A stretch of DNA of 64,000 bases, from NCBI RefSeq assembly GCF_026686735.1, contig NZ_CP113432.1:2965001-3029000 (forward strand), given 5' to 3'. Under the pieces are notes generated by a model that saw only the letters and a program-made list of their open reading frames with translations, ran no database searches and was not told the DNA's origin. Below are positions 7,008 through 20,498 of the stretch, in pieces; the first letter of the stretch is position 1, and the number at the start of each line of letters is the position of its first letter. The translations under genes were made by a program, and so were the position numbers. This stretch comes from Pseudomonas triclosanedens. GTDB taxonomy: Bacteria > Pseudomonadota > Gammaproteobacteria > Pseudomonadales > Pseudomonadaceae.

Positions 7008-7363
7008 GCTGTTCTCTGGTGATGTGGCGGGACGCGAAAGGCGAGCGTTTTCGCAGGAATCGGCCGCACTGGCAAGGCGCCATTGTTCCCGAACGCTCTA
7101 GCCATTAGCGCGATTGAGTCAATCGAGCCGGCGGAGCATGCCCTATATCAAGCTATGGGACAGCATTCGAGCAAGTCGTTTCGGCCCCTCGGTTCCGTGC
7201 GAGCCGTGTCTGCGTGTCGGCGATGCGGGAGGTGGTCGGGCAGCACCGCGCCCCGCCGGCTCACGCCACAGCGGGCACCTCTCGCATCGAACCTCGAACC
7301 GCGTTGGAGCATTGGAGTTCGCCAGACGCCTTTCCAGCAACTGATTGCCGGGGAGTCACGGAG
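7008..7363. other. Intergenic region between divergent genes
   Basis: 356 bases with no convincing gene. It must hold the promoters of the FKBP gene and of the di-haem lipoprotein operon. The only ordered element I see is CGATTG-AGT-CAATCG at 7111-7125, a small inverted repeat that could be an operator. Short open frames here lack a Shine-Dalgarno sequence and recognisable protein character. Confidence 0.5.
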
Positions 7364-9850
7364 ATGGTCGGGCAGCAGGGATTCCGCATCGCGCTGATAC
7401 TGGCCGCGACGCTGCTGTGCAGCGCTTGCGACAAACCTACCGAAGATGAAGCTAGCCGTGCGGGCCTGAGCGAGAAGAATTTCCCGCAGGCGGACGAGCC
7501 GTACTTCAAAGACATGGACAACGGCGTGAGCCTTACGCCGGACCAGGAGCAGGGCCGCAACATGTGGCTGGTCTGGAGCGGTGGCAACGACCGCTTCTGG
7601 GACACGATGGGCCGCCCGACGCTGGGCGGCTTCGACCTGCTGAAGATCGTCGCCCCACCGCCTGGCAGCGACCTGCAGCGCGGCCAGCGCTGGAAGGTCC
7701 TGGGGTTGGTCAACGAGCCTTGCTTCGACGCCGCCGCCAGCGGTGACCCGTCGCGCTTCGGCCTGCGCCTGGACGTGCGCCGCGCCGACTGCCCGCCCGA
7801 CCCGTTCGCCAACGCGCAGAAGTACCCCGGCGTGAAGATCGGCGCGCGAGGCCAGACCTACAAGGATGGCAGCATGCTGCCGGTGGGCTCGTACTATGGC
7901 GAGCCCACCGGCATCGTCGGCCTGCGCCTGTTCACCAACCCGGATTTCGATGAGGCCGCAAAGGCTGCCTGGGACCCGCAGCGCTACTACAACGACCCTG
8001 CCTACTACAGCAACCCGAACCTGGTGCGCCCGTATCGCGTCGGCATGTCCTGCGGCTTCTGCCATGTCGGCCCCAGCCCGGTCAATCCGCCGTGCGACCC
8101 GGAAAACCCGCAGTGGGCCAACCTCAACTCCACCGTGGGCGCGCAGTACATGTGGGTGGACCGGCTGTTCATCATCGAGCCGAACAAGGCAAACTTCATG
8201 TACCAGTTGGTGAAGACCTATCGGCCCGGCTCGATGGACACCTCGCTGGTTTCCACCGACAACATCAACAACCCGCGCACCATGAATGCCGTCTACAGCC
8301 TCCAGGCGCGCCTGGAGGTCGGCAAGCGCCTGGGGCATGAGCAACTGGCCGGTGGCGAGCAGAACAATCGCCAGTTCAACGACTTCCTCAGCGAAGGCTG
8401 GCTCACCGGGTTGTACCGCAAGCCGGACCAGGTATGGACGCCGCACGTGCTCAAGGATGGCTCCGATTCGGTGGGCGCGCTGGGTGCGCTGAACCGCGTC
8501 TATATCAACATCGGGCTATTCAGCGAAGAGTGGTTGCAGCACTTCAACGCAGTGGTCGGTGGCAAACCGATCACGCCGTTCGAGATTGCAGTGGCCGAGA
8601 AGCACTCAGCCTACTGGCGTGCCACCGAGCAAGGCACGATCAAGACCGCGCAATTCTTCCTCGCCGCCGCCAAACCCGATCACCTGGCCGATGCGCCCGG
8701 CGGCGACGCCTACCTCAGCCACGACGCTGCCGTGCTGGCTCATGGCCGCGAGGTGTTCGCCAACACCTGCGCGCGCTGTCATTCCAGCAAATCGCCGAAG
8801 CCACCGGCGGAGCTCGTTGTGGATGGCTGCAACGGACCGAACTACATGAGCTGCTTCGCCAAGTGGTGGAAGTGGACGCAGACCGATGACTACAAGCGGC
8901 AGATGCGCGACATCGTTGGCGCGCCGGATTTTCTGGATGGCAACTACCTCTCCAGCGACGCGCGGATTCCCTCGACACTCCTGCGCACCAACGTCTGCAG
9001 CCCGCTTGCGACCAACGCGCTGGCCGGCAATATCTGGAACGACTTCTCCTCCAACTCCTACAAGAGCCTGCCCTCGGTAGGCAAGGTGACACTGCGCGAC
9101 CCGTTCGACGGCCATGCCTGGAGCTACACGATGCCTGCCGGCGGCCGTGGCTACACCCGCGTGCCTTCGCTGATCTCCGCCTGGTCGACGGCACCGTTCC
9201 TGCTCAACAACGCCGTCGGGCCATTCAACGGCGACCCTTCGGTGAAAGGGCGGATGGCAGTGTTCGACGCTTCCATCGAACAGATGCTCTGGCCGGAGCG
9301 GCGGCTGCGCGATGCCGAACTGGGCGACCGGGTGGACGGCATGATCGACCGGACCGACCAGCGCAGCTTCATCATGCTGCCGCCGCACTATGTCGAGCAG
9401 ATCCGCAAGGTCGCCGGACCGGCGGGCGAGAAGCTGCTCGACAGCCTGCAGGACAAGGACGGCTTCCTGCGCCTGGGACCGATCCCGCAGGGCATGCCGG
9501 TCAATCTGCTGGCCAACGTGCAGCCGCTGGCCGAAAGCAGCAAGCCCGAAGATCTTGTCGAGCACTACGGGCAATTGCTCAAACTGCTGGTGAAGATCAA
9601 GGGCGACCTGTTGACGCTGCCGCAGGACGCCGACGACGCCGCGCTGCGCGAGCATTTCGCCGATGCTCGCGCTGGGCTGATGGCGCTGAACAAGTGCCCG
9701 GATTTCGTGGTGAACCGCGGTCACTACTTCGGCACCGCGCAGTTCAACCAGACCGAAGGGCTGAGCGAGGACGAGAAGGCCTTCGGCACCGAGCCGGTGC
9801 TCAGTGACGACGACAAGCGCGCCCTGATCGAATTCATCAAGACGCTATGA
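7364..9850 (+). CDS. Di-haem c-type cytochrome lipoprotein, probable peroxidase/oxygenase-like
   Basis: An 828-residue exported protein. The chosen ATG at 7364 gives a hydrophobic signal ending in LLCSACD, with Cys22 as likely lipidation site, and has GGGGAG upstream; the longer frame from 7214 would bury this signal. Two CXXCH haem sites are visible, CGFCH (His234) and CARCH (His473), 239 residues apart. Two c-type haems in one large exported chain recall the MauG/cytochrome c peroxidase superfamily and di-haem oxygenases such as RoxA or the P. aeruginosa fatty-acid diol synthases, but homology to those is not proven here. It is first in an operon, overlapping the GMC gene by 4 bases. Confidence 0.8.
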   Translation: MVGQQGFRIALILAATLLCSACDKPTEDEASRAGLSEKNFPQADEPYFKDMDNGVSLTPDQEQGRNMWLVWSGGNDRFWDTMGRPTLGGFDLLKIVAPPPGSDLQRGQRWKVLGLVNEPCFDAAASGDPSRFGLRLDVRRADCPPDPFANAQKYPGVKIGARGQTYKDGSMLPVGSYYGEPTGIVGLRLFTNPDFDEAAKAAWDPQRYYNDPAYYSNPNLVRPYRVGMSCGFCHVGPSPVNPPCDPENPQWANLNSTVGAQYMWVDRLFIIEPNKANFMYQLVKTYRPGSMDTSLVSTDNINNPRTMNAVYSLQARLEVGKRLGHEQLAGGEQNNRQFNDFLSEGWLTGLYRKPDQVWTPHVLKDGSDSVGALGALNRVYINIGLFSEEWLQHFNAVVGGKPITPFEIAVAEKHSAYWRATEQGTIKTAQFFLAAAKPDHLADAPGGDAYLSHDAAVLAHGREVFANTCARCHSSKSPKPPAELVVDGCNGPNYMSCFAKWWKWTQTDDYKRQMRDIVGAPDFLDGNYLSSDARIPSTLLRTNVCSPLATNALAGNIWNDFSSNSYKSLPSVGKVTLRDPFDGHAWSYTMPAGGRGYTRVPSLISAWSTAPFLLNNAVGPFNGDPSVKGRMAVFDASIEQMLWPERRLRDAELGDRVDGMIDRTDQRSFIMLPPHYVEQIRKVAGPAGEKLLDSLQDKDGFLRLGPIPQGMPVNLLANVQPLAESSKPEDLVEHYGQLLKLLVKIKGDLLTLPQDADDAALREHFADARAGLMALNKCPDFVVNRGHYFGTAQFNQTEGLSEDEKAFGTEPVLSDDDKRALIEFIKTL

Positions 9851-11661
9851 CGGCGGAGGCGTACGACTATGTCATCGTCGGCTCCGGCGCTGGCGGCGGC
9901 ACCCTGGCTGCACGCCTGGCGGAAAGCGGCGCGAAGGTGTTGCTGCTGGAAGCAGGCGGCGATCCCTGCAACGAGCCGGCGGATGGTCTGCCCGGGCAAT
10001 ACCGCGTGCCAGCCTTCCACGCGCGGGCTTCGGAGCACCCGGCGATGAGCTGGAACTTCAAGGTGAACCATTACGCCGACCCGGCCCAGGCCGCCCGTGA
10101 CGACAAGTGGAGCGCCGGTGGCGTGCTGTATCCACGGGCCAGCCTGCTGGGCGGCTGCACCGCGCACAACGCCATGATCTACCTGGCCGCCCACGACTCC
10201 GATTGGGACGCTATCGCCACGCTGACCGGCGACCCGAGCTGGTCGGCGCGCCGCATGCGCCGCTGGGCGCGCAAGGTCGAGGACTGCCGGCATCGGCCTG
10301 TCTGGCGCTGGTTGCGCCACCTGGGCCTGGCCCCGACCGGGCACGGCTGGAACGGCTGGCTGCGCGTCGAACGCTTCGAGCCGCAGGACGCCTGGCGCGA
10401 CGTGTGGATGCTCTGGCAGATCGCCGTGGCGGCCTGTGCGGCGTTGCGTGGCATTGGCGGCGGCATCCTGCCCTGGCTGCGGCTGGCGCTGGGCAAGGGC
10501 GACCCCAACGATGTGCGCGTCGCCGGCAGCGAAGGCGTCTGGTACACACCGATAAGCACCTCCGGGCACCACCGGACAGGTACCCGCGAGCGCCTGCTGG
10601 ACGTGGCGAGCCGCCATCCAGGCTGCCTGACGTTGCAATTGAACGCCCTGGTCACCCGAGTGCTGCTCGACGAGCAGGCACGGGCAGTGGGCGTGGAGTA
10701 TCGGCAGGGCGAGCGCCTGTACGGCGTTTGCGCCAGACCCTCGGGCGAAGACGGTGTACGGAGGCAAGTGCACGCCCGGAAGGAAGTGATCCTTTGCGGC
10801 GGCGCATTCAATTCGCCGCAATTGCTGATGCTCTCGGGCATTGGCCCGCGGGAGCAACTGGATGCGCATGGCATCCGCTGCCAGGTCGAACTGCCTGGCG
10901 TCGGCGCCAATCTGCAGGATCGCTATGAAGTCGGGCTGATCTACCGCATGCAGCGCCCCTGGGCATCGCTTGCCGGGGCGCGCTTTGCCGAGGGCGATCC
11001 GCTGTACCGGCGCTGGCAGCTCGACGGCAGCGGGCTCTACGGCTCCAACGGCGCGGCGCTGGCGGTGACGCGGCGCTCGACTGTCTGCGAGGGCGACCCG
11101 GACCTGTTCATGATGGCCATGCTGGTGCCATTCCGTGGCTACTATCCCGGTTATGCCGAGGCCGTATACGGCGCGCACGACCGCCTGACCTGGTGCGTGC
11201 TCAAGGGCCACACGCGCAATCGTCGCGGGCGGATCAGCCTGGCCAGCGCCGACCCACAAGAGCCGCCGCGCATCGATTTCAACTACTTCGACGAAGGCGG
11301 CGAGCAGGACCTCCAGGCGCTGGTGGACGCGGTGCAGATGGTCCGCGACATCGCCGGCCCGATGCAGGACGCCAGCGAGGAACTGCCTGGCGGCGGGGTC
11401 CGGGGCGAGGCGTTGAAACAGTGGATCCGCGACAACGCCTGGGGCCACCACGCCTCCTGCACCTGCGCCATCGGCCCGCGTGAACAGGGCGGGGTGGTCG
11501 ACGGCAACTTCAAGGTGCATGGCGTCAGCGGGCTGCGCGTAGTGGATGCCTCGGTGTTCCCGCGCATTCCGGGGTTCTTCATCGTCAGCGCGATCTACCA
11601 GATCGCCGAAAAGGCCGCCGACGCGATCCTCCGCGAGCCGCCCAGGGGAGAGTCGCCATGA
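9847..11661 (+). CDS. GMC-family FAD-dependent oxidoreductase
   Basis: Glucose-methanol-choline family flavoenzyme of 604 residues, predicted to oxidise an alcohol. The dinucleotide motif GSGAGGGT is at 12-19, the second GMC signature (GGAFNSPQLLMLSGIGP) near 317-333, and the C-terminal domain with catalytic histidine region GHHASCT near 535 and VVDASVFPRIPG near 562. No signal peptide or Tat motif is seen, so it is probably cytoplasmic or membrane-associated. Its ATG overlaps the stop of the di-haem gene (ATGA), and its own stop overlaps the next start the same way, so the three are translationally coupled. Substrate unknown; the neighbours suggest a hydrophobic or lipid-derived alcohol, which is inference. 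Confidence 0.88.
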   Translation: MTAEAYDYVIVGSGAGGGTLAARLAESGAKVLLLEAGGDPCNEPADGLPGQYRVPAFHARASEHPAMSWNFKVNHYADPAQAARDDKWSAGGVLYPRASLLGGCTAHNAMIYLAAHDSDWDAIATLTGDPSWSARRMRRWARKVEDCRHRPVWRWLRHLGLAPTGHGWNGWLRVERFEPQDAWRDVWMLWQIAVAACAALRGIGGGILPWLRLALGKGDPNDVRVAGSEGVWYTPISTSGHHRTGTRERLLDVASRHPGCLTLQLNALVTRVLLDEQARAVGVEYRQGERLYGVCARPSGEDGVRRQVHARKEVILCGGAFNSPQLLMLSGIGPREQLDAHGIRCQVELPGVGANLQDRYEVGLIYRMQRPWASLAGARFAEGDPLYRRWQLDGSGLYGSNGAALAVTRRSTVCEGDPDLFMMAMLVPFRGYYPGYAEAVYGAHDRLTWCVLKGHTRNRRGRISLASADPQEPPRIDFNYFDEGGEQDLQALVDAVQMVRDIAGPMQDASEELPGGGVRGEALKQWIRDNAWGHHASCTCAIGPREQGGVVDGNFKVHGVSGLRVVDASVFPRIPGFFIVSAIYQIAEKAADAILREPPRGESP

Positions 11662-12845
11662 TTCTGCAACGAGCCCATGCCGTGCTGATCTTCCTGCTGC
11701 ACGTCGAACGCCGCTTCGAACCGTTCTTTCGGCCTTGGCTCAACGTGTTGCTGCGCGAGCCGATGGCGGCCCTGATCCAGTTCTTCTACAACCTGCGCAG
11801 GCCCGACCTGCACCTGGCGCTGGCCGAAGAGCGCCGCGAAGCCGACGAGGAAGCCAGCCTGCAGAGCATGATCGACACCATGCGCGAGCACCTGGCACAG
11901 GACTTCCGCCCCGGTGGCGTGGAGCGCGCCGGCAACACCAAGACCCACGGGATCGTCCGGGCGACGCTCAGGGTCCACGACGATCTGCCTGGGCACCTGC
12001 GCCACGGGCTGTTCGCCCAACCGGCCAGCTATCCCTGCTATGTACGGTTTTCCGGGCCAGGGCCGCACGTCGAGCCGGACATCGACGACGTTGGCTTTCT
12101 CAGCATCGGGGTCAAGGTCATGGGTGTGCCTGGGCCGAAGCTGATGGACGACGAGCGCTTCACCCAGGACTTCACTGGAGTCTGCACGCCTACCTTCGTC
12201 ACGCCGGACACGCGCTCCAACGTCAAGTTGCAGATGTGGAGCCGGCGGCACATGGGGGTGTTCTACTTCTTCGACCCTAGCGGCCCGACCGGCACCCATC
12301 TGCTCGACCTGCTGATGCAGGGCCTGTGGAACGAAACCCAGTACAACCCGCTCGGCCACGAGTTCTACAGCTGCGTGCCGTACTTGCTGGGCGAGGGCCA
12401 GGCGATGCAGTACCGCTTCCGCCCGCTGTCGCGGGTGCCGCAGCGGATTCCACGGCTACCGCTGCGGCCGCCGGACAACTACCTGCGCGACAACATGGTG
12501 CGGACACTGGCGCAACAGGACGTTGAGTTCCACCTGCTGGTACAGGTGCAGACCGACGCGCACCGCATGCCGCTGGAAGATGCCGGCGTGCGCTGGCCCG
12601 ATCGCCTGTCGCCCCCGGTAGCGGTGGCGACCTTGCGAATTCCGCGGCAGCGCTTCGATTCCCAGGCCCAGCTCGACTTCGCCCGCAACCTGACCATCAA
12701 TCCCTGGCACTGCCTGCCGGAGCACCGGCCGCTGGGCAACCAGAATCGCGCGCGCAAACGCATGTACTACGAGCTGGCACGCTATCGGCAGGTACAGAAC
12801 GCTGTGCAGCACATCGAGCCGACCGGCGACGAAACCTTCGATTGA
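11658..12845 (+). CDS. Catalase-fold haem protein (catalase-related / allene-oxide-synthase-like)
   Basis: 395 residues with the weak catalase-superfamily pattern. Distal histidine region KTHG has His97 preceded by Thr96; YVRFSG and VKVMG follow in the core, and NPWHCLPEHRPLGNQNRARK plus MYYELARYR lie near the C-terminus. The last block resembles the corresponding block of catalase-fold allene oxide synthases. True catalases have Val before the distal His, whereas coral allene oxide synthase has Thr, so a fatty-acid hydroperoxide substrate is possible. The N-terminus (LIFLLHVERRFEPFF) is hydrophobic, without a clear cleavage site. Last gene of the three-gene operon, coupled by ATGA overlap. 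Confidence 0.78.
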   Translation: MILQRAHAVLIFLLHVERRFEPFFRPWLNVLLREPMAALIQFFYNLRRPDLHLALAEERREADEEASLQSMIDTMREHLAQDFRPGGVERAGNTKTHGIVRATLRVHDDLPGHLRHGLFAQPASYPCYVRFSGPGPHVEPDIDDVGFLSIGVKVMGVPGPKLMDDERFTQDFTGVCTPTFVTPDTRSNVKLQMWSRRHMGVFYFFDPSGPTGTHLLDLLMQGLWNETQYNPLGHEFYSCVPYLLGEGQAMQYRFRPLSRVPQRIPRLPLRPPDNYLRDNMVRTLAQQDVEFHLLVQVQTDAHRMPLEDAGVRWPDRLSPPVAVATLRIPRQRFDSQAQLDFARNLTINPWHCLPEHRPLGNQNRARKRMYYELARYRQVQNAVQHIEPTGDETFD

Positions 12846-12854
12846 AGCGGCGCC

Positions 12855-14333
12855 CTAGGGTTCGTGCAGCAGCCACGCCAGCGCCTTGAGCCCTGGCAGG
12901 AAGAAGTAGCCGCCACCGCGCAGGGTCACGAAACGCGGCAAGGCGCAGGTGAAGCGGCAGGCACCCTCGGTGCTGGGCTGGCTGAAACCGTCGGTGGGCT
13001 GCTCGCCGGGGAACGGCAGGCGATTGCCCAGCAGTGGGTCCTGCTCGCGATTCAGACCGGCGAAGGTGGCGCTGGCAATCCAGGCGCCCTGCACGAATTC
13101 GAACTGCCGCGCCAGGTTGGCGTTCAGGCAGATGAAATAGAGCCCCGTTTCGGCGGGTGCGCCGGTTTCCCCGTCGATGGCCACATAGGGTGCGCCGCCA
13201 TATTCGCGGCCACGGCGCAGCAAGCGGTGGAAGCGTGCCGAGGCGATGTGGTCCTCCTCGGCGTTTCCACTGAAGCCTAGCAGCGCCAGCAGCTTGCCCA
13301 GCGTTCCGCTGCGGCCCTGCGCGTAGTCCCCGGTGCGCGGGTTGGCACGGCGGATGTGCGCGCCGAAGGGGCAGGCGTGCCCGGAGCGGTCGTCGGCGAA
13401 GGTGAAGTCGTTGTTGCCGTCACGGGCGTTCAGGCGTGCGAATGGCGAGCCGTCGAGGTGTCGGCCAACCATCGCTTCGGCCAGCTCCAGCGCGCTGTCA
13501 TCGCCCTCGCTCTGCTGGCGTACCCAGCGCCAGAAACCGCTGACGTCCTGCTGCAATTGCCGCAGTACCAGGTAAGTGCCATTGCGCCCGAGGTCATGGT
13601 GGTTCGGCTGCTCCTCCGCCAATGGCAGCTCCTGCGCGCGAGGGATGCTGGCGGCGAGCAGCGGGCGGTCGGTGTAGAGGTCGTATTCGTTGCGATAGCC
13701 AAGCAGGAACTCGCCCAGGGCGATGCGCCGCTGGTAGTCCATGTCTTCAGCGCCGCCCGGCTTGCGTGTGCCTTGCCAGTCCAGCTCCGGCTGGGAGATG
13801 CCATCGCGAAAACCGAATGGCTCGAAGCCGTCCAGGTCGGCGGCGGGCAGGCTTTCCACCAGCGACAGACCGGCGGCTGCCGCGCTTGCCAATAGTCCGG
13901 CGCTACGCTCGTCCAGCTCTCCAGGCGCGCAGAACAGCATCAGCAGCAGATGCGGTGCGCGCTCACCGACGCCCCAGCGCCAGTGTTCGGGCGAGTTGGC
14001 TCCGATATCGCCAAGGCGGCGCAGGCGGTTGACATCATCGCCCGGCGCGGTGGTGAACTCCGGGGCGAACTGTTCGAGCAACCCCTCGTGTCCCAGTTGC
14101 CGCAGACCTTCGGCGCTCAGGGCAAGTTGCAGGGTGTGCCGTACCGGTGGTTTGTCGTGGCCAATCCGGGCGACGCTCGCCAGTTCCGGCAGGCGCTCGA
14201 GCAGCCAGGTGCGGGCCGTTGCCGGCGTATCGATACGCAGCAGCAGAAGGTTACAGGCCAGGCGGTCGAAGGCCGTGCGCAGCAGTGCCTGGGTGTCGAC
14301 GGCGTCCGCCGGGCTGAAGATCGCCCCACTCAT
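12855..14333 (-). CDS. DyP-type haem peroxidase
   Basis: Dye-decolorising peroxidase family, 492 residues. The family signature GXXDG is present as GFRDG (174-178), with catalytic Asp177. The haem-ligand region CPFGAHIRRANPR (321-333) carries the proximal His326 and the conserved distal arginine. There is no Tat or Sec signal, so a cytoplasmic location is expected. It is the last gene of a minus-strand operon after two uncharacterised proteins, 3 bases after the preceding stop, and converges with the catalase-fold gene 9 bases away. Two haem peroxidase-like proteins end to end suggest a shared peroxide or hydroperoxide substrate. Confidence 0.9.
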   Translation of the reverse strand: MSGAIFSPADAVDTQALLRTAFDRLACNLLLLRIDTPATARTWLLERLPELASVARIGHDKPPVRHTLQLALSAEGLRQLGHEGLLEQFAPEFTTAPGDDVNRLRRLGDIGANSPEHWRWGVGERAPHLLLMLFCAPGELDERSAGLLASAAAAGLSLVESLPAADLDGFEPFGFRDGISQPELDWQGTRKPGGAEDMDYQRRIALGEFLLGYRNEYDLYTDRPLLAASIPRAQELPLAEEQPNHHDLGRNGTYLVLRQLQQDVSGFWRWVRQQSEGDDSALELAEAMVGRHLDGSPFARLNARDGNNDFTFADDRSGHACPFGAHIRRANPRTGDYAQGRSGTLGKLLALLGFSGNAEEDHIASARFHRLLRRGREYGGAPYVAIDGETGAPAETGLYFICLNANLARQFEFVQGAWIASATFAGLNREQDPLLGNRLPFPGEQPTDGFSQPSTEGACRFTCALPRFVTLRGGGYFFLPGLKALAWLLHEP

Positions 14334-14336
14334 GGC

Positions 14337-15617
14337 TCAGATCTCCGCCAGCCAGCGCCGCAGCCCTGCATCGCTGGCCGGTGGATGCTCAAGCCCCCGG
14401 CGGATGCGCGCATTGCGGGCGAGATCGGCATTGGTCAGGCCGGGGTAGGCCTTGTACCAGACATCCGTGGCGAGCTGACGGCGGTGCAGGTAGTTCTTGA
14501 AGCGCTGCTCCTGCCAGGCGCCGCGCAGCACCAGGAAATCTGTCGGCGGGTAGTTGATGCCGTTGGAGAACACCAGGTTGAGTCCGAAAGCGACCTTGTT
14601 GATGAAGTCGTCCATGTAACTCTCCAGGCTGCCGTCGTAGTTGCTGGCGAAAAACACCCGGCGGCTGTCGTCCAGCAGCACCCAGTGGGCGAAATGGATG
14701 GTGCTGACCCGCGCAAGACGGCCCCGGTGATAGAGCAGCGCACAGGAGCGGTCGAGCAGCCACAGCGCCGCGCGAGTCACGCACAGGCGGAAGGCGCCGG
14801 GCTTGAGCGAGCCGATGGCGCTGAATGGGTTGGTGACGTCGCGGTCTTCGCCCTGGGCGATGGCGCGGGTGACGGCAGCATCGGAGCGTAGGTCTAGCAC
14901 CGGGTCGCGGGTCTCGTGGCGGCGCAGCAGCCAGAGGAATAACGGCGCGGCGAGAAGGCCCGGCACCACTAGCAGCGCGCCGAGCAGCAGAAGCAGCGCG
15001 GCTTCGCCCACCTGCGCCAGCCACTGGCCCAGGCTACGCGGCTGGAGTGGCGTGAGCTCCGGCTCTTCGCTATCCACCGCGTGACGCAGGCGCCGATGCA
15101 GCTCGCGCGGCGCCAGGGTTTGCGGATGGCTGTGCAGGACGCGCCGCAGAGTATCGTGCAGCGCCGCTTCCTCGCGCACCTGGCGCACCGTGCGGCCAAC
15201 CCAGTTGACATAGCTGGCCGACGCCGGCGTGCGGCGCGCCCGCAGCCAGGCGCAGAGATCGACATCGGGCTCGCAACCGTCGCAGTGCTGGAAAATTTCC
15301 CGCAGGCCGCTGCCGGCCTCCTGCACCAGGCGCTGCAGGATGTCGTCCGCCGGGCCGTCGCAATCGACCATCAGTACCAGGTACAAGGGCTCCTGCTCGG
15401 GCAGGCCGGGGTAGCAGGCGCGCTCGCCGAGGGTACGGTCCTGTGCCACTACCAGGCGGGCGAAGTGGATCGCTTCGAACCGGCCGAACGGCAGCCAGGT
15501 GTTATATGGATCGACTTCGCCGGGCGCGCGGTTCATGCGCGCCAGCAGCGCGCGCAGCGCCGGCGCGTGGTGTTCGCGCACGCTTGCCGCGACCATGAAA
15601 TGGTCCTGGGTGATCAT
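14337..15617 (-). CDS. Uncharacterised membrane protein with internal duplication
   Basis: 426 residues, not matched to a named family by eye. Two similar modules flank a single hydrophobic hairpin (about 206-231). Module 1 has AIHFARLVVAQD at 49-60 followed by YLVLMVDCDG; module 2 has TIHFAHWVLLDD at 306-317 followed by VFFASNYDG. The shared pattern IHFA-x2-V-x3-D, then a strand ending in DG, suggests a duplicated alpha/beta (ferredoxin-like) domain of the sort seen in DyP and EthD proteins; this is inference. The C-terminus has WYKAYPGLTNADLARN. It lies 3 bases before the DyP gene and 5 bases after the small upstream gene, so it is almost certainly co-expressed with the peroxidase. Confidence 0.7.
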   Translation of the reverse strand: MITQDHFMVAASVREHHAPALRALLARMNRAPGEVDPYNTWLPFGRFEAIHFARLVVAQDRTLGERACYPGLPEQEPLYLVLMVDCDGPADDILQRLVQEAGSGLREIFQHCDGCEPDVDLCAWLRARRTPASASYVNWVGRTVRQVREEAALHDTLRRVLHSHPQTLAPRELHRRLRHAVDSEEPELTPLQPRSLGQWLAQVGEAALLLLLGALLVVPGLLAAPLFLWLLRRHETRDPVLDLRSDAAVTRAIAQGEDRDVTNPFSAIGSLKPGAFRLCVTRAALWLLDRSCALLYHRGRLARVSTIHFAHWVLLDDSRRVFFASNYDGSLESYMDDFINKVAFGLNLVFSNGINYPPTDFLVLRGAWQEQRFKNYLHRRQLATDVWYKAYPGLTNADLARNARIRRGLEHPPASDAGLRRWLAEI

Positions 15618-15622
15618 CGTGT

Positions 15623-16060
15623 TCAGACGTCGAATTCGAGGGCGAAGTCGATCAGCCGCTTCTTGCTCCAGTACACCTTGCCCAGGTAGACACCGGGGGC
15701 GATCAGACGGATTTCGTCACGAATCCAGTGCGCCACCAGCGAGGTGTCCGAGTAGTCGAGAACGATGCACTCCTTGCCATCGAGCCAGCTCGGCCCCTTG
15801 TAGACCTTGGCGATGATCGCCTTCAGCCCCAGCGGCAGGATGTGATTGCGCAGGGTGCCGCTCTGCGCGTCGAACACCTTGCCTTGCCAGGCGAAGACGT
15901 TGATCAGTTTGGCGATTTCGTCGCTGAAGGACGTCCCCGGCGCGACGATTGCGGTGCCGCGTGCTTCGCCTTCGGGAATGGGGCCCGCTTCGTGGGCGCT
16001 GAACAGCTCATCCAGTTCGGCCTGGGATTGGGTAAGAAGCGAATCGACGATGCTGCTCAT
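15623..16060 (-). CDS. Conserved hypothetical protein, first gene of the DyP operon
   Basis: 145 residues, soluble, no signal peptide. The start at 16060 (MSSIVDSLL) is preferred over the upstream ATG at 16186 because AGGGA lies at Shine-Dalgarno distance and the extra N-terminus is low-quality, arginine-rich sequence. The protein contains TAIVAPGTSF, LINVFAWQGKVFD, LRNHILPLGLKAIIAKVYKG, WLDGKECIVLDYSDTSLVAHWIRDEIR and GVYLGKVYW. The last blocks read like a small beta-barrel ligand-binding fold, but I do not recognise a family. Five bases separate it from the membrane protein gene. Function unknown. Confidence 0.7.
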   Translation of the reverse strand: MSSIVDSLLTQSQAELDELFSAHEAGPIPEGEARGTAIVAPGTSFSDEIAKLINVFAWQGKVFDAQSGTLRNHILPLGLKAIIAKVYKGPSWLDGKECIVLDYSDTSLVAHWIRDEIRLIAPGVYLGKVYWSKKRLIDFALEFDV

Positions 16061-16468
16061 GGTGTCGTCCCTGCACAGTGAGCGGGCGCGCCGCTCGGAG
16101 CTGGAGTAGCCAGCCGGCGTACAGGGACAAGCGGAACCCAGGGAACGCGCAGCCGGATCGCCCCAGGCGAACACCCGCGGCACCACTGAAAGCCGCGACC
16201 TGGATGGGGTTCACTTAATTAGATAGGTCGCTTTTCGGCACCTCGTTTTACCGAATCGCACTAAACCCTATCGCGTTTGGCGTTGAACCCGAGGTACTGC
16301 GCTGGCGGAGCGATCGATCCGTACCGTCCGTCGCCAAAAGACTCTCCGGCCCGGCTCCGTGGCCGTCATGGCGGGCATTCTGCTGAATCTGGACGATGCT
16401 CTGCTGGTGGGCGCCCGACGATCCTGCGGCTAGCAGCCTGGGCGTTGGATTCTTCCAGGGAGATCGAG
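16061..16468. other. Intergenic region between divergent genes
   Basis: 408 bases without a supported gene. An AT-rich patch at about 16213-16258 (with ACTTAATTAGATAGG and TCGTTTTACCG) is the likeliest promoter area for the DyP operon and possibly for the lipoprotein. No clear operator or terminator seen. Confidence 0.45.
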
Positions 16469-16930
16469 ATGAAACACACCAGGCAGGGAATGTTCGCTTT
16501 CATTCTGGCGTTCGCGCTGGGCGGTTGCGCTTCGGTGGATGCCGGCGGCAATGCCGGCCCCGGCGAGACGGAAATACGCGCGGGGGTGGTCGAGCAGGTC
16601 AACGATACGCAGGTGCAGAGCAACCATGACAGCGGGATCGGCGCGATCCTCGGGGGGCTGGGCGGCGTGGGGCTGGGCAGCCTGATCGGCCGGGGCACCG
16701 GGCGCGACGTGGCGATGATCGCCGGTGCTCTGGCCGGCGCGGTGGGCGGCAACTATGCCGAGCAACGCCGGTACGATAGACCTCAGGCTGCACAGCAGGT
16801 GATCGTGCGGATGAACAACGGCGTGCTGGTCTCGGTGACCCAGCCGGTGAACCCTGACCTCAAGCCCGGCACGCCGGTCTACATCGAAGGGCAGGGCGCC
16901 GGGGCCCGGGTCCTGCCGCGAAGCGGCTGA
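16469..16930 (+). CDS. Glycine-zipper outer-membrane lipoprotein (SlyB/PCP family)
   Basis: 153-residue lipoprotein. The ATG at 16469 follows AGGGAG and gives a signal peptide ending LGGCAS, with Cys as lipid anchor. The mature part has RAGVVEQV, then a glycine-zipper membrane segment (GIGAILGGLGGVGLGSLIG, followed by AGALAGAVGGNYAE), and a C-terminal beta domain with VIVRMNNGVLVSVTQ and PVYIEGQG. This is the SlyB/PCP architecture thought to support outer-membrane integrity. The upstream extension to 16277 has no signal character. It is monocistronic, and its stop touches the LysR remnant on the other strand. Confidence 0.85.
   Translation: MKHTRQGMFAFILAFALGGCASVDAGGNAGPGETEIRAGVVEQVNDTQVQSNHDSGIGAILGGLGGVGLGSLIGRGTGRDVAMIAGALAGAVGGNYAEQRRYDRPQAAQQVIVRMNNGVLVSVTQPVNPDLKPGTPVYIEGQGAGARVLPRSG

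Positions 16931-17355: not shown

Positions 17356-20498
<3,143 letters not shown>

Follow-up and report, generated by a model that had tools for sequence, protein, structure and literature searches.

A conserved six-gene cluster of haem and flavin enzymes in Pseudomonas triclosanedens: a candidate two-module pathway for lipid oxygenation

Introduction

The closest described system to the one reported here is the diol synthase operon PA2078-PA2077 (FadCcp) of Pseudomonas aeruginosa, in which, according to the accessible text of its description, two paralogous di-haem enzymes turn a fatty acid into a hydroperoxide and then into a product, and which is likened to RoxA (PMC4496055). In the same account overexpression of PA2077 is toxic, expression of the whole operon abolishes the toxicity, and the partner gene handles the toxic intermediate (PMC4496055). 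The coral allene oxide synthase (cAOS) or hydroperoxide lyase has the catalase fold and, in the available part of its description, carries T66-H67-N137 and is fused to a lipoxygenase (PMC5617202; PDB 1u5u). For DyP peroxidases no physiological role has been settled, and the substrate and role of the Deinococcus radiodurans enzyme (8re2/8re3) are likewise left open in the available text, which makes no mention of its gene context (PMC10820274). Here we analyze a cluster of six genes, encoding a di-haem c-type protein, a GMC flavoprotein, a catalase-fold protein, a DyP-type peroxidase, a membrane protein and a small protein, which lies in a stretch of 64,000 nucleotides (nt) of Pseudomonas triclosanedens DNA (NZ_CP113432.1, 2,965,001-3,029,000; referred to as the window, the positions of which serve as coordinates throughout). 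We propose, with a probability of roughly 55%, that the six genes make up one two-module pathway which introduces oxygen into unsaturated fatty acyl lipids and processes the hydroperoxides so formed in an oxylipin-like manner.

By analogy, the cluster may be regarded as a richer version of the PA2078-PA2077 operon. Likened by description, the di-haem proteins of both have a signal peptide (in the window protein a signal-like N-terminus) and two CxxCH motifs about 240 amino acids (aa) apart; the spacing of the haem histidines is 239 aa in the window protein, while the accessible text gives 245 and 235 aa for PA2077 and PA2078 and 199 aa for RoxA (PMC4496055). The operon differs in having two paralogous di-haem enzymes with a MauG-motif His, where the window protein has Leu, and that text describes no DyP, ABM, catalase-fold, lipocalin-like or GMC partner (PMC4496055). 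Searches of the open-access literature aimed at the six-gene cluster listed no description of it, in line with the preliminary description of the window, which had been made from the sequence alone and knew of no pathway with this set.

Results

The plus strand encodes the di-haem protein, which is apparently exported (7364..9850, 828 aa), the GMC oxidoreductase, which has no signal sequence (9847..11661, 604 aa), and the catalase-fold protein, a candidate hydroperoxide-processing haem enzyme (11658..12845, 395 aa), with 4-base overlaps at both junctions. On the minus strand follow, in the order of reading, the small protein, predicted to be a lipocalin-like beta-barrel (15623..16060 with its ATG at 16060, 145 aa, no signal sequence seen), the membrane protein with two predicted ABM-like halves (14337..15617, 426 aa) and the DyP-type peroxidase (12855..14333, 492 aa, no signal sequence seen), separated by gaps of 5 and 3 bases. 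The two operons are convergent and only 9 bases (12846-12854) lie between their ends. These six open reading frames (ORFs), with their overlaps, gaps and spacing, were all as first noted when the coordinates were checked. The catalase-fold, membrane and small proteins are without any match in Pfam or NCBIfam, and promoter and terminator scans of the cluster were uninformative.

Conservation of the set was addressed with the membrane protein as bait, which gave 170 confirmed loci in one-per-species genomes; the best 80 of these were analyzed, some of them ending at contig edges, and genes were counted with our own profiles at self-set bit-score thresholds, so that all counts are conditional on the membrane-gene bait. 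A DyP gene adjoins the membrane gene in 80/80 loci, the small protein was found in 70/80 by profile (76/80 by a looser tblastn search), and the catalase-fold, di-haem and GMC genes were present in 69, 59 and 51 loci, respectively. Co-occurrence of the six families across genomes had been set beforehand as a check, and the complete set was found in 41/80 loci in 18 different arrangements (16 if a doubled di-haem match is ignored), with the gene order of the window in six of them (L002, L003, L017, L027, L035 and L061). That the set stays linked while its order shuffles speaks strongly for a shared function, and a chance neighbourhood is rejected in view of the invariable DyP-membrane adjacency and the 41 complete sets. 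By record title the hosts are Alpha-, Beta- and Gammaproteobacteria, Desulfopila, Acidobacteria, Verrucomicrobia, Nitrospira and Gemmatimonadaceae, the chemolithotrophs among them being Nitrosomonas, Nitrospira and Nitrosovibrio. A second set, 398 genomes from the phylum with that of the host among them, yielded an ABM match in 18 genomes (own included), four full-length and 14 divergent or partial, and in 18/18 the DyP was adjacent or fused to it. ABM-DyP is thus the constant core of the cluster. Around it two modules can be told apart, which are separable and often combined: module A (di-haem protein, usually with the GMC enzyme) and module B (ABM, DyP, catalase-fold and usually the small protein). 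The idea of one redox system, with which the preliminary description began, is largely supported by the conserved linkage, and by the presence of both operons in one block absent from relatives (see below), but has to be amended to a system of two separable parts.

The decisive clue is REPLACEMENTS: di-haem c-type proteins, relatives of alpha-dioxygenases and P450s neighbour the same core. All three groups include members which oxygenate fatty acids. An oxygenase candidate was present in 55 of the 56 loci in which the sequence extends 5 kb or more from the membrane gene in each direction, the overlapping classes being di-haem proteins (47), animal-haem peroxidases (10) and a second two-CxxCH family (4). 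Animal-haem peroxidases occur in 12/80 loci, and a thirteenth is in L101; no complete di-haem gene scored in ten of the 12 loci, among them L033 with a di-haem fragment at the edge of its contig, while L012 and L080 carry both. Pfam confirms the assignment in L071, L067, L033 and L101. The best PDB match, and closest solved relative, of the L101 and L071 proteins is the plant fatty-acid alpha-dioxygenase (4kvj, 4hhr; E 8.3e-57 and 2e-55), of which the window cluster encodes no counterpart. In the L071 protein the Tyr-Arg-x-His and distal His segments, which we take to hold the catalytic residues of alpha-dioxygenase, align with those of that enzyme.

Fusions of P450, ABM and DyP, 1,408-1,535 aa in length, were present in six of the 14 genomes with a divergent or partial ABM (L103, L104, L105, L107, L108 and L110); P450 and DyP were identified by Pfam in the five fusions scanned and by our own profile in L104. 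Separate P450, ABM and DyP genes are found in L111, with a cyclase/TPR gene nearby, and the P450 gene of L106 was seen by our own profile only. Patatin-like lipases or phospholipases were found in 10/80 loci by our own profile, with Pfam confirmation in the two scanned, and alpha/beta hydrolases in 4/80 by profile; both profiles were built from some of the same loci. A substrate of the fatty-acid type is suggested because of the alpha-dioxygenase relatives, the patatin-type lipases, the cAOS match and the RoxA-type kinship described below, so that the hydrophobic substrate imagined at the outset is largely upheld as a class, by this independent but indirect evidence. Upstream of the P450 fusions we observed a nucleotide cyclase with TPR domains (L104, L105, L107) or a TPR protein (L108, L110); the gene upstream of the L103 fusion had no Pfam match. 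Another CxxCH protein stands by the core in L042, L044, L058, L072, L075 and L079, mostly of about 650-750 aa with two motifs, and Nitrospira is among its hosts.

The di-haem protein has CxxCH motifs at residues 230 and 469, both of which are kept in at least 98% of 58 aligned family members, the window member included; together with H787 they are invariant in 39 members. H787 aligns with the His of a RoxA-like protein at the position of the C-terminal axial haem ligand, and an hhalign comparison with a RoxA-like set gave a probability of 98.3 (E 1.5e-14) over the C-terminal half only. The C-terminal haem, its axial His and a similar C-terminal end are thus remotely shared with RoxA and RoxB, the neighbouring genes of which differ. 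In NCBIfam searches at E <=0.01 the CytoC_perox model matched 39/39 members, RoxC 10/39, RoxB 7/39 and RoxA 5/39; the best RoxA E value was 3.4e-6, the curated cut-off of that model being 1000 bits. The window protein itself matched only CytoC_perox, with 26 bits versus a cut-off of 150, and showed no RoxA-model match at this threshold. A single-sequence PDB search was uninformative, and with the family profile the best 60 of 95 PDB matches were c-type cytochromes, and the alignments of the top matches centred on the second haem. We consider the protein a remote relative of RoxA and CytoC_perox di-haem proteins and, judging from these similarities, a candidate O2-inserting lipid oxygenase. It had been described as a lipoprotein; the two CxxCH motifs and the signal-like N-terminus agree with an exported di-haem protein, but the N-terminus fits none of the lipobox patterns tried, one of which is fitted by 28/58 aligned family members. 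A second di-haem protein of the host genome (L132, G000:C1:2616359-2616469), in a frame of about 630 aa, has a weak RoxA match (E 5.1e-7).

The GMC enzyme has both domains of its family over the cut-offs (N-terminal PF00732, E 2.4e-23; C-terminal PF05199, E 1.1e-27), which confirms the assignment made earlier, and a flavin adenine dinucleotide-binding motif sits at its N-terminus. H534-H535 are found in at least 98% of 48 aligned proteins; by a spacing argument the second catalytic residue may have been lost, Phe578 standing where Asn or His is usual. A search from the di-haem side across the 398 genomes (E <=1e-40) gave a match in five, two of which (G000 and G285) also had the membrane protein; in G097 a di-haem and GMC pair adjoins a patatin.

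The DyP-type protein belongs, as judged by sequence, to the DyP peroxidase family, as first proposed: PF20628 is matched with 21.5 bits versus a gathering score of 20, although TIGR01413 (E 1.6e-20) remains under its cut-off with 73.7 versus 100.5 bits, and the nearest solved sequence is that of the D. radiodurans DyP (8re3, E 1.2e-39). Asp177, His326 and Arg333, presumably the GXXDG aspartate, the proximal histidine and the distal arginine, are found in at least 98% of 75 aligned proteins. The membrane protein, previously noted as a duplicated-domain protein, is better described by its predicted fold as a tandem dimeric alpha+beta barrel of the ABM type, the two halves probably forming one split barrel around a hydrophobic segment at about residues 196-236; the best fold matches, WhiE-ORFI and Abx(+)O, bear titles of polyketide proteins. 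The small protein is predicted to form a lipocalin-like barrel and is a candidate carrier of a lipophilic intermediate. It has at least 7,994 scored homologues, and any names among the 120 listed are 'hypothetical' or 'uncharacterized'. Profile searches of PDB sequences with the membrane and small proteins were uninformative. In L101 and L028 a single open frame, in L101 of 911 aa between stops, encodes both a DyP and a catalase-fold domain.

The relationship of the catalase-fold protein to catalases is visible by profile search only; a single-sequence PDB search was uninformative. With the family profile (A4) the best PDB match was the coral enzyme 1u5u (E 1.3e-6), above the true catalases. 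The distal His is a catalytic residue of catalase. Asn93 aligns with this residue (His75 type) of two catalases, and the catalase GNNTP aligns with gvstp, which places Val at the distal Asn (Asn148 type), a position that is Val or Ile in most rows of the main family. The proximal Tyr is present in an RxxxY motif (R366, Y370), judged by the motif, the region not being aligned to a catalase; N93, R366 and Y370 are each found in at least 98% of 71 aligned proteins. G92-N93 aligns with T66-H67 of cAOS in a weak stretch (7.9 bits), so that the distal pair differs from that described for the coral enzyme in the available text (PMC5617202), Asn93 standing at its His; the Val at the Asn position was placed by alignment with catalases. 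Since both distal catalytic residues are lost the protein is not a catalase, and plain catalase activity in H2O2 defence is rejected; of the earlier assignment the profile kinship with catalases stands. A second catalase-fold protein lies near the alpha-dioxygenase relative in 7/80 loci (L013, L032, L046, L047, L068, L071 and L073) and in L101, with Gln at the distal His position in the four members aligned.

In the host the cluster occupies a block without counterpart in close relatives (7077..16455). The di-haem protein is absent from 55/55 relatives, 24 of which are of the same genus, and the small protein from 24/24 same-genus genomes. The left neighbour, FKBP-type by inspection of its sequence alone, was found in 25/25 genomes (own included), and the right neighbour, a glycine-zipper protein, in 12/25 (own included) with no match in 13 at E <=1e-20; in five of the 11 other glycine-zipper genomes this gene does not adjoin the left neighbour. 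Six same-genus genomes show the empty site, with the flanking genes 234-954 bp apart compared to 9,461 bp in the host; against these six, flank homology stops at 7059/7076 and restarts at 16456-16559. The block thus measures at most 9.4 kb and holds both operons with no further gene identified. Its G+C content (0.666 versus 0.648 for the window) is no marker of the block, and no repeats of note were found that would point to a mobile element with long flanking repeats. Acquisition by transfer is the simplest reading, the alternative being loss in relatives.

Discussion

In the pathway that we propose, module A would supply an oxygenated lipid, the exported di-haem protein adding O2, and module B, at the cytosolic face of the inner membrane, would make a specific product from the hydroperoxide or from fragments of it. 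The ABM barrel may dock the DyP at the membrane, as the fusions hint, the catalase-fold haem may rearrange or cleave the hydroperoxide as its kinship with cAOS suggests, the lipocalin-like protein might carry the intermediate, and the GMC enzyme would by its family oxidize an alcohol; the stepwise order of these reactions is a guess. The relief of PA2077 toxicity by the whole operon suggests why genes for the handling of hydroperoxides would be kept close by.

Several observations weigh against this pathway. The main difficulty is that the oxygenase is apparently exported while module B is signal-less, so that the inner membrane would lie between them. The N-terminal haem half of the di-haem protein is unaligned with the RoxA-like set, and in its PFLLNN segment Leu614 replaces the His of the MauG motif (PYFHNG) of a RoxA-like protein and PA2077. 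Two genomes (G236 and G097) hold di-haem and GMC genes with no core gene within the 19.5 kb examined, and a third (G130) has a divergent di-haem gene together with a relative of the other two-CxxCH family, and neither GMC nor core. L030 has sufficient flanks and yet no oxygenase candidate, and the PDB comparison covers two of the 13 animal-haem peroxidases (L101 and L071). In addition, the compounds with which DyPs and ABM folds are more commonly associated are dyes, phenolics and polyketides.

The cluster might instead serve as a defence which only detoxifies accidental hydroperoxides of membrane lipids, the di-haem protein being a peroxidase and not an oxygenase. The best-scoring model of that family is indeed named a peroxidase, DyP and catalase folds belong to peroxide enzymes, and the chemolithotrophic carriers make exotic catabolism unlikely; however, the alpha-dioxygenase relatives keep their Tyr motif and P450 fusions exist, both of which point to oxygenation, and the distal catalase residues are gone, and we therefore hold such a defence to be improbable, if worth keeping in mind. 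Rather less credible is oxidation of an isoprenoid, in which a polyisoprenoid, carotenoid or hopanoid would be cleaved or oxygenated by the di-haem protein, much as rubber is by RoxA, before the other enzymes oxidize the fragments. The Rox models do match part of the di-haem family and the GMC family includes sterol oxidases, but the company of alpha-dioxygenase relatives and patatins speaks for acyl lipids, and no isoprenoid enzyme was seen among the minority of neighbour families that were annotated.

Tailoring of an aromatic compound or polyketide, with ABM and DyP acting on a quinone-like or polyketide molecule, would agree with the fold matches of the ABM protein and with the oxidation of anthraquinone dyes and phenolics by DyPs recorded in the available text (PMC10820274). 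We find it very doubtful, as the same annotated minority of neighbours holds no polyketide synthase and relatives of fatty-acid enzymes recur instead. The notion that the two operons have independent functions and simply adjoin can draw on their convergence, by which they are not one transcript, and on the occurrence of modules A and B each alone. We give it hardly any credence, given that the six genes stay together in about half of the loci in shuffled orders, that pairwise-identity correlations between families reach 0.53-0.94 in 37 genomes (in part a reflection of species relatedness), that L002, from a Rhodospirillum metagenome-assembled genome, is nearest for all six proteins among complete loci, and that the host carries the six genes in a single block which its relatives lack.

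More tentatively, and on balance doubtfully, the lipid pathway could be extended to a general equivalent, in bacteria, of the oxylipin (eicosanoid-like) pathways of eukaryotes. In it interchangeable oxygenases (di-haem c, alpha-dioxygenase-type or P450) would feed a conserved, membrane-docked complex of ABM, DyP and catalase-fold proteins that makes a defined oxygenated lipid, the DyP would natively act on a lipid hydroperoxide or on the product of one, and the cyclase/TPR genes by some P450 fusions would provide a link to signalling. The fixed ABM-DyP partnership by relatives of fatty-acid oxygenases gives a testable substrate class and a defined set of partners for the DyP, and the proposed pathway would give DyP peroxidases a natural job to test. 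If true, enzymatic lipid oxygenation in bacteria would be much wider than the few cases known to us and, going by record titles, would extend to nitrifiers, Acidobacteria and Verrucomicrobia.

With regard to other functions, phage defence was considered and rejected, PADLOC giving no match for the six proteins, as was a structured RNA, with no Rfam match over the gathering score anywhere in the window. Beside the cluster, at 17356-20498 on the minus strand, lie a FepA-family TonB receptor and then an esterase (PF00756; its enterochelin esterase match is weak and under the cut-off), perhaps a pair for the uptake of a catecholate siderophore. In the listed form the esterase ORF shares about 500 bases with the receptor gene, and its true start is therefore probably internal.

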